Positions 52,515-55,335 of a stretch of 64,000 nt of DNA are shown in pieces; positions within the stretch are counted from its first letter, which is position 1; every line of letters starts with the position of its first letter. Location: contig JAAYNP010000026.1 in NCBI GenBank assembly GCA_012520795.1, positions 1-64,000 of the forward strand, given 5' to 3'. The position numbers were made by a program, and so were the translations under genes. This DNA is from Bacillota bacterium. Lineage in GTDB: Bacteria; Bacillota; Limnochordia; Darwinibacteriales; DTU012. Under the pieces are notes generated by a model. That model had not been told where the DNA came from. It was given only the letters and a program-made list of their open reading frames with translations, and searched no databases.

Positions 52515-52625
52515 ACCCCCCTTTTAACCCCAATATTACAATTCTTGGATCGCGGCGGGAATCCTCCCTGTTTGCAGCAAAGGCCTATCTTAGTTTACAG
52601 AGTTGTTTTTTTGCCAGGAACTTGA

Positions 52626-52659
52626 TATAATGCATCTGTGCACAAATTTGTGTACAGAT
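52626..52659 (+). promoter_or_regulatory. -10 box with adjacent 26-bp palindromic operator
   Basis: TATAAT (52626-52631) then ATCTGTGCACAAATTTGTGTACAGAT (52634-52659), 12 of 13 pairs complementary. Confidence 0.75.
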
Positions 52660-52677: not shown

Positions 52678-55326
52678 ATGCATCCGTATATCGAACATGT
52701 CAATCCGAACCTAGGAGATCTGCTGACAAAGATTGGGTTGGACAAATGCTTTGTCAGGGGCCAAGGCTGCTTCCTGTATGATCAAGACGGCAATACATAC
52801 CTTGATCTAATTGCCGCATATGGTGCTTTACCATTTGGTTTCAATCCGCCGGAAATCTGGGAAGCTATCCGCCGGGTGGAAGCTTTGCAGGAACCCAGTT
52901 TTGTGCAGCCGTCCTTGTTGACACCAGCGGGGAAGCTAGCCCAGAGTTTGCTGGCTGTGGCTCCCGGCATGGGCAAAGTAACTTTTGCCAACAGTGGAGC
53001 TGAGGCAGTGGAGGCTGCGATCAAACTTGCCCGGTCCAGAACTGGGAGAATGGGGATCGTCTCTACTGTCAACAGCTTTCACGGCAAAACGCTGGGGGCC
53101 TTGTCGGCGACAGGAAATGGCAGCTACCAGCGGGCTTTTGGCGCCCCGGTCGAAGGGTTCCGCTTCGTCCCTTATGGAGATATCCATAGCTTGAAGCTGC
53201 TGCTGGAAGCTGAGGCCAGCCAAATTGCCGCTGTGATCCTGGAGCCGATTCAAGGCGAAGGAGGTATTGTCGAGCCCCCAGCGGGGTATTTGGCGCAGGT
53301 ACGGGATTTGTGTACTCAGCACGGCGTGCTGTTGATTCTTGATGAAATCCAAACCGGATTAGGCCGTACCGGGCAGATGTTTGCAGGTACAGCGGAGGGT
53401 GTTGCGGCCGATATCGTCACCATTGCCAAAGCCTTGGGCGGAGGTTTGGTTCCGATTGGTGCAATGCTGTGTACTGACGAGGTCTATGCGGAGGAATTCG
53501 CCACCAAGCATTCGTCGACATTTGCCGGAAACACTATTGCCTGCCGGGTTGGTTTAAGGGTGTTGGAACTATTGACCAAAGATGATCAATGGCTTGTGCG
53601 GGAAGCAGCCCGCAAAGGTAAGCGTTTCAAGCAGGGCCTGGAGGAAATCCAAGCCAAGTATCCCCAGATCATCAAAGAGGTGCGGGGGCGGGGATTAATG
53701 CTGGGACTAGATTTCGGCAGTACCCGAGACCCTTATCCCGGCAGCATGATTGGCTTTATGGCTGAACAGAAAAGCCTGACGCCGATTATCGCCAGCCACT
53801 TGCTGAATGTTGGAAAGGTCCGGGTTGCCCCGACCCTCAACGGCGCCAGTGTAATCAGAATCGAACCGCCGTTGGTGATTTCTGATCAGCAGATCGAATT
53901 TGCACTGTACGCGATTGAACATACAGTGTCTGTCCTGGCGCGGCGCAATACGGCAGCGCTCACAAGCCATCTGGTGCATGGAACTGTACAGTTGGATGCC
54001 GCAGGCACTTGTTTGCCTCAGCCGCTGTATACCTCCGAGCCTGCTGCCCCTGAACCGGATGATGGCCGGTTTGCCTTCATTGTCCATCCCTTGGATGTGA
54101 AGAACTACGCCGACTACGATCACAGCCTGCAGGCCTTCACTAAAGAGCAGCTGTCGGATTTGGCTGGGCGCTGGACAGACACGCTGGATCCGTTCGTGCT
54201 GTCCCGGGCCCGGATAGTTTCATCGGCAGGGAAAGCGGCAGCAACAGGTGATTTCATTGTTGTGCCCTATACTGCAGCGGAACTGCGGCGGATGCCCAGG
54301 GAAGAAGCGGAAGCAGTAATCATTAAAGCGGTTGAACTTGGTGTCGAGCGAGGTGCGGAAATTGCTGGGCTTGGAGCCTATACCTCTGTTGTGACCGGAG
54401 GCGGGCGGACCTTGCTTAAGCATATCCCGGTGCCTTTGACAACAGGCAACAGCTTTACTGTGTCCTCGGGGGTTGATGCCCTGATGATTGCCGGAGAAAA
54501 GCTTGGATTGGACTTGGGGCAGGCCACTGCCGCTGTTGTTGGGGCAGGCGGCGCCATTGGCAAAGCCTCTGCCTTGCTGTTGGCGGAACATGTTGGCAGG
54601 CTGGTTCTGATCGGAAATCCGGACCGTCCGGAGAAGAATCGGCTGCGGATGCTCAGAGCTGCAGCTGAGATGTACCGATACCTTCGTAAACAGCAAGCCC
54701 GGGGAGCCAGCTACCCTTCAGGCAGCATCGGGGCCTATGTCAGCAGCCTGGCTGATCTGCCCTCTCTCGACGAGCCTTTCAGCGTATGGTTAGGTTATGC
54801 CGAAGCAAGCCTCGGGCAGCCCGGCTGCCCGGTGGCAATTACCGTTGATCGGGCAAAAAGCCTTCCTCAGGCTGACCTGATCCTGGCAGCCACCAGCAGT
54901 ACGGAAGCTTTGATTACTCCCTGTCTAGTCAAGCCGGGGGCAGTGATCTGCGATATGTCCCGCCCTGGCAATGTCAGCCCGGATGTTCTGCAAGAGCGTC
55001 CTGATGTCCTGGTGATCGACGGGGGAGTCATTGAACTGCCCGGTAGGCCAGATTTGGGGTGGGATTTCGGTTTTGGCAAAGGTTTGGCATATGCCTGCAT
55101 GTCCGAGACAATCGTCCTTGCCCTGGAAAAGATTTATACCAATATGAGCATTGGGGCGGACCTTAACCTGGAATACATGAACCGGCTGAATGAGTATGCC
55201 CGTATTCATGGTTTTAAGCTGGCAGGCTTTCGCAGTTTTGACCTGCCGCTGCCGGAAGGCGTATGGCAGCGGGTCGTTGCCGCCCGCAAAACGGCAGCAA
55301 GGGATAGAGAACCTGTGTCTCTGTGA
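52678..55326 (+). CDS. Fusion: class III PLP aminotransferase + acyl-ACP reductase (AAR)-like dehydrogenase domain
   Basis: N-half: [55 protein letters not shown] (PLP Lys ~251). C-half: [78 protein letters not shown] (Cys ~807). Confidence 0.85.
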
Positions 55327-55335
55327 CACAGGTTC
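55309..55335. terminator. Perfect hairpin spanning the stop codon of the fusion gene
   Basis: GAACCTGTGTC-tctgt-GACACAGGTTC; stop TGA (55324-55326) lies in it; no clear U-tract. Confidence 0.5.

Follow-up and report, generated by a model that had tools for sequence, protein, structure and literature searches.

A putative TamH-type aminotransferase-reductase fusion for primary amine synthesis in an order of Bacillota

The gene at 52678-55326 on the forward strand of the 64,000-nucleotide stretch analysed here (the window), from a Bacillota bacterium, raises the question of whether one polypeptide can reduce an acyl thioester and then aminate the resulting aldehyde. A first-pass annotation had proposed this activity for an N-terminal class III aminotransferase followed by a reductase resembling cyanobacterial acyl-ACP reductase (AAR).

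Two catalytic domains in one reading frame

The frame is open throughout and encodes 882 aa. It begins with an ATG, and a good ribosome-binding site, AAGGGAGG, stands upstream. A single frame of about 870-980 aa with both domains was found again in dozens of genomes. This recurrence shows that the fusion of the aminotransferase and AAR halves is real, as the claim of a single polypeptide had implied. The features of the gene are as follows.

52678-55326, forward strand: whole reading frame of the fusion gene (882 aa; single frame kept in relatives)
52678-53925, forward strand: class III PLP aminotransferase domain, residues 1-416 (PF00202; PigE aminotransferase domain, including the conserved N-terminus)
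53341-53358, forward strand: D222-EIQTG, PLP-binding aspartate motif (sequence reading and comparison with relatives)
53428-53430, forward strand: Lys251, PLP Schiff-base lysine (invariant among the fusions compared)
53926-54066, forward strand: inter-domain linker, about residues 417-463 (gap between domain matches; low conservation)
54067-55287, forward strand: AAR-like thioester reductase domain, about residues 464-870 (NCBIfam and PDB matches)
54541-54561, forward strand: GxxGxxG dinucleotide-binding motif, G622/G625/G628 (GAGGAIG begins at G622)
54616-54618, forward strand: Asn647, at the position of R189 (NADPH phosphate) in Synechococcus AAR (SeAAR); N in 45/45 fusions
54622-54825, forward strand: fusion-specific insertion of about 55-65 residues (about 649-716), borders approximate (alignment)
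55096-55098, forward strand: Cys807, predicted acyl-accepting nucleophile, at the position of SeAAR C294 (alignment)
55156-55158, forward strand: Ala827, at the position of SeAAR R314 (alignment)

A Pfam search matched residues 24-416 to PF00202 above the cut-off (E 5.8e-100, 335 bits). The aspartate of the DEIQTG motif was located at D222 and the lysine of TIAKALGGG at K251. These results agree with the original assignment of this half as a class III PLP aminotransferase.

No Pfam family scored above its cut-off for the reductase half. The NCBIfam model for long-chain acyl-ACP reductase, TIGR04058, matched it with an E value of 3.9e-20, and the score of 72.4 bits against a curated cut-off of 449.7 places it as a homologue outside the equivalog. 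The N-terminal half of the PigE model also matched (E 4.2e-43). Among PDB entries, the reductase half matched PigE (4ppm, E 7.2e-31) and Synechococcus AAR (6jzq, E 4.2e-15), and its identity to characterised enzymes was low overall. The AAR homology proposed for the second half is thus supported, and the Rossmann motif reported there was found as GAGGAIG from G622.

The AAR sequences were compared in an alignment of 79 rows, made up of 45 fused relatives (37 + 8), 32 standalone ones, PigE and SeAAR. Cys807 aligned with C294 of SeAAR, and both Cys807 and E810 were invariant in 79/79 rows, so the residue picked out earlier does occupy the position of the AAR nucleophile. The insertion of about 55-65 residues follows the Rossmann beta-2 region and precedes the second half of the reductase domain. 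It was present in the fusions and missing from standalone AARs, SeAAR and PigE. The position of Y247, which lines the acyl tunnel of SeAAR, is occupied here by Arg762, and Arg was found in nearly all Bacillota AARs, fused or standalone. Because of this replacement, the enzyme may act on something other than a simple fatty acyl group. An AlphaFold model built from three sequences had a mean pLDDT of 44, too low to be of use.

Coenzyme and relation to TamH, PigE and cyanobacterial AAR

In SeAAR, the phosphate of NADPH is held by R189, R193, and R314 (PMC7089970). The R189 column was placed by direct continuation from an aligned SeAAR fragment that ends at residue 188. It contained Arg in 32/32 standalone Bacillota AARs and in PigE, whereas Asn was present in 45/45 fusions. 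The R314 column likewise held Arg in all 32 standalone AARs and never among the residues listed for the 45 fusions. Both arginines were also missing in the four proteobacterial plasmid fusions compared. Since two of the three NADPH-phosphate arginines are lacking in the fusions and kept in standalone AARs, NADH is the predicted coenzyme of the fusion enzyme. NADPH, which had been suggested as the assay cofactor, is probably wrong, given Asn647 and Ala827 at the R189 and R314 positions and the NADH specificity of TamH (PMC9594044). Asn647 and Ala827 make this a clear coenzyme-switch prediction.

TamH of Pseudoalteromonas tunicata, which acts in the biosynthesis of tambjamine YP1, begins with a class III aminotransferase and ends with an AAR-like thioester reductase; K340 is its PLP lysine, and C887 is put forward as its nucleophile (PMC9594044). 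Recombinant TamH converted C12-ACP, supplied from TamA, to the C12 amine using NADH but not NADPH and L-Glu as the amino donor, and its reductase required the cognate acyl-ACP (PMC9594044). The annotation had cited TamH as a precedent with a different reductase fold; this was incorrect, since its reductase is AAR-like and the domain order is the same as here (PMC9594044). The two proteins share the GxxGxxG motif and the catalytic Cys as well as the order of the domains, and the absence of two NADPH arginines from the fusion is in line with the NADH specificity of TamH. By the published residue numbers of TamH, the distance from Lys to Cys is 547 residues (K340/C887; PMC9594044) compared to 556 here (K251/C807). 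The Rossmann Gly and the Cys are 185 residues apart in the present protein, compared to 180 in TamH, by the same numbers, and 132 in SeAAR. These spacings fit an insertion of about 55-65 residues common to TamH and the fusion. Judged by domain order and published residue numbers, the protein is therefore likened to TamH and classed as a putative TamH-type bifunctional enzyme. The two differ in context: TamH is part of a tambjamine cluster, in which TamA, an adenylating di-domain protein, supplies its substrate, whereas the gene in the window is a lone gene.

PigE of Serratia, an enzyme of prodigiosin synthesis, has the reductase half first and the aminotransferase half second; both thioester reduction and aldehyde amination by it are backed by evidence (PMC8341465). 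Purified PigE had no reductase activity, though activity was seen in cell lysates (PMC8341465). Both of its domains are homologous to those of the fusion (full chain E 3.9e-119), and its Cys296 matches C807 (PDB 4ppm). However, PigE differs in its reversed domain order, in lacking the insertion of about 60 aa and in retaining NADPH arginines at both of the positions compared. Against the PigE family model NF053554, the fusion scored 537.8 bits compared to a curated cut-off of 850, and with its opposite order it is not a member. Cyanobacterial AAR (PDB 6jzq, 6jzy; PMC7089970) shares a homologous reductase, the Rossmann motif and the nucleophilic Cys294. Unlike the fusion, it is standalone and NADPH-dependent, and its product passes to an aldehyde-deformylating oxygenase, which is absent here.

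Homology, the catalytic residues and the biochemistry of TamH and PigE together support the proposed logic of reduction followed by amination in one chain. This interpretation was right in substance but is not new, because TamH has the same domain order and converts acyl-ACP to an amine in vitro, so the architecture was already known. In the open-access literature, which gave the work on TamH and PigE, we found no report of such enzymes in Bacillota.

Distribution and a co-occurring 300-aa protein

An AAR-like gene was found in 69/73 genomes of the class (one per species), fused in 46 and standalone (~365 aa) in 23, when sorted on the basis of identity, frame length and inspected loci. None of the 73 genomes had both forms. 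Within the window's own order, 34/37 genomes carried the fusion, in single copy. Across the phylum, a match was present in 241/399 genomes, some of the matches being weak. What sets this enzyme apart is that nearly all members of one order carry the fusion and that it is not tied to an antibiotic cluster.

The fusions formed one clade in the tree of the aminotransferase half (SH-aLRT 95) and one clade in the tree of the AAR half (support 99/100). In the latter tree, the placement of PigE and SeAAR was disregarded; both had very long end branches, and their sequences were rebuilt from alignments. Since the fusions form a single clade for each domain, the simplest reading of the trees would be one fusion event in Bacillota, with two subgroups. 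A separate class III aminotransferase of ~480 aa in standalone-AAR genomes was considered as an unfused partner and rejected; it forms its own clade, which groups weakly with PigE and YgjG, and in one genome (G066) it adjoins the fusion.

The same two-domain protein was also found on plasmids of Paraburkholderia phymatum, Leisingera, Pseudorhodobacter, Haematobacter, and Rhodovulum. The Paraburkholderia phymatum fusion is 45% identical over the full length. Annotated records describe these plasmid fusions as aminotransferase only.

Standalone AAR genes in the phylum stand in a conserved block of coaX, dusB, a ~185-aa HTH protein, a 300-aa protein, AAR, greA, and lysS, where the names coaX, dusB, greA, and lysS are those we presumed from reading the sequences. 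The 300-aa protein lies between the HTH protein and AAR (loci L060-L079 and L125-L139). It was present in 71/73 genomes of the class, including the host (G000:C69:2280-3188), whether AAR was fused or standalone. In four loci (L093, L097, L098, L109), the fusion directly follows the 300-aa protein, in the place of the standalone AAR. By hand-compiled lists uncorrected for kinship, the 300-aa protein was present in 236/241 AAR-bearing genomes of the phylum compared to 55/158 others. A profile search against PDB and single-sequence searches against Pfam and NCBIfam found no meaningful relatives of it. The correlation suggests that the 300-aa protein and AAR act in a shared pathway, in which the fusion and the standalone AAR are alternatives.

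Acyl donor, proposed reaction and alternatives

No acyl or amine genes adjoin the fusion gene in the window, where it stands alone. The conserved divergent gene for a secreted protein upstream and the ABC and pseudouridine-synthase genes were considered as partners and rejected; we took them for order-level synteny. An AMP-binding (PF00501) enzyme was not found in the host genome (99% complete, 154 contigs), while 12/14 control genomes were positive, and a tambjamine cluster with a TamA-like adenylating enzyme was likewise not encountered. Only a single ketoacyl synthase and a single ACP are encoded in the host genome, side by side. Because this genome lacks an AMP-binding enzyme yet has a ketoacyl synthase and an ACP, the donor, if the acyl group is fatty, is most likely acyl-ACP from the cell's own fatty-acid synthesis. 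An aldehyde oxygenase had been noted as absent nearby, and this holds for the whole host genome (99% complete), in which no aldehyde-deformylating oxygenase was found.

Our preferred reading, to which we give a probability of about 0.7, is that the protein is a TamH-type enzyme converting acyl-ACP to an aldehyde with NADH and then to a primary alkyl amine; the reaction is taken from the biochemistry of TamH and PigE. The AAR-like C-terminal domain would load an acyl group from acyl-ACP, most likely on the ACP of fatty-acid synthesis, onto Cys807. The thioester would then be reduced to an aldehyde with NADH as the reductant. Finally, the N-terminal class III PLP aminotransferase would convert the aldehyde to a primary alkyl amine with a donor amino acid, e.g., glutamate.

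Other fusions offer clues to the acyl supply. A Leisingera protein of 1395 aa (WP_260009430.1) carries aminotransferase, AAR and AMP-ligase parts in one chain. Its aminotransferase and AAR signatures are as here, but unlike the present protein it has its own acyl-adenylating domain, and such a three-domain polypeptide could in principle convert an acid to an amine by itself. Next to the gene (L166:9959-14146, on a plasmid of Leisingera sp. M527) are genes for an MMPL transporter, for outer-membrane lipoprotein sorting, and for additional adenylating and condensation-like proteins. On pBPHY01 of Paraburkholderia phymatum (L171:9656-14409), an AMP-binding gene with a DIP2-like C-terminus overlaps the fusion gene. 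A DIP2-like C-terminus is typical of fatty-acyl-AMP ligases. This AMP-ligase-like gene is followed by a P450, a GST and a gene with a phosphatidylglycerol lysyltransferase C-terminal domain. In several loci of the second Bacillota group, the fusion has a DegV/FakB-like fatty-acid-binding protein as its neighbour.

The same two-step chemistry might instead act on a non-fatty acyl thioester of diaminopimelate, lysine, or polyamine metabolism and give a diamine or an amino acid. Class III aminotransferases are widespread in ornithine, lysine, and putrescine metabolism, and the closest single-domain relatives of the aminotransferase half include putrescine and acetylornithine aminotransferases. 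The Arg at the acyl-tunnel Tyr position fits this reading, and dapB, dapF and DegT aminotransferase genes lie downstream of the fusion in several genomes of the order, not in the window, which allows for an amino-acid role. However, the dap order is not constant in the window's genus, where an AraC-type gene stands at this place in the window, L082 and L083. The characterised relatives of the reductase half use medium- or long-chain acyl groups, and other fusions adjoin acyl-AMP ligases or FakB-like proteins. We therefore regard a non-fatty substrate as rather unlikely.

Both TamH and PigE come from clusters for tambjamine- or prodiginine-type products (PMC9594044, PMC8341465), and some proteobacterial fusions adjoin adenylating, condensation-like or P450 genes, so the fusion could supply a precursor for a tambjamine- or prodiginine-like secondary metabolite. 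This is very improbable for the present gene, as the window contains no such cluster, the host genome no AMP-binding enzyme, and a near-universal, single-copy gene would be rare for secondary metabolism. It is also conceivable that only one half is active, for example, with the aldehyde of the reductase used elsewhere and the aminotransferase acting on an unrelated substrate. Standalone AAR without an adjoining aminotransferase is common in the phylum. The dependence of TamH on its cognate acyl-ACP and the inactivity of purified PigE reductase (PMC9594044, PMC8341465) would accord with a single active half, although these cases, with the activity of PigE in lysates, also show that coupling can be hard to detect. 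Against it, the catalytic residues of both halves are conserved among the fusions compared, and the single clade of fusions for each domain implies that the two halves have stayed together; we hold this explanation, too, to be very improbable.

A TamH-type enzyme of this kind would have wider meaning, since TamH-type enzymes have so far been known from antibiotic clusters. The fusion is near-universal and single-copy in the order, and the genome that carries it here has minimal fatty-acid synthesis; this would point to primary alkyl amines as a general product. We tentatively propose, as a possibility short of an even chance, that fatty amines made from the general acyl-ACP pool are a core, near-universal trait of the order, tied to the 300-aa protein. 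In that case, alkyl amines would serve this order as common constituents of its lipids or envelope and not as parts of antibiotics. The fusions are a large and diverse set of candidate catalysts from fatty acid to amine, and the co-occurring 300-aa protein is a further target of study.

Some minor observations were made on the gene and its flanks. In one relative (L095, G065:C1:505876-508442), the aminotransferase and the AAR are encoded in separate reading frames, through either a natural split or a sequencing error. A perfect TATAAT occurs at 52626-52631, about 50 bases 5' of the start of the fusion gene (window 52603-52631); the -35 element, TTGTTT, is weak with a 17-base spacer, and the promoter fell below the scanner's threshold. 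An 11-bp perfect inverted repeat without a T run, GAACCTGTGTC...GACACAGGTTC (window 55309-55335), extends across the stop codon of the fusion gene, between the convergent fusion and AraC-type genes.
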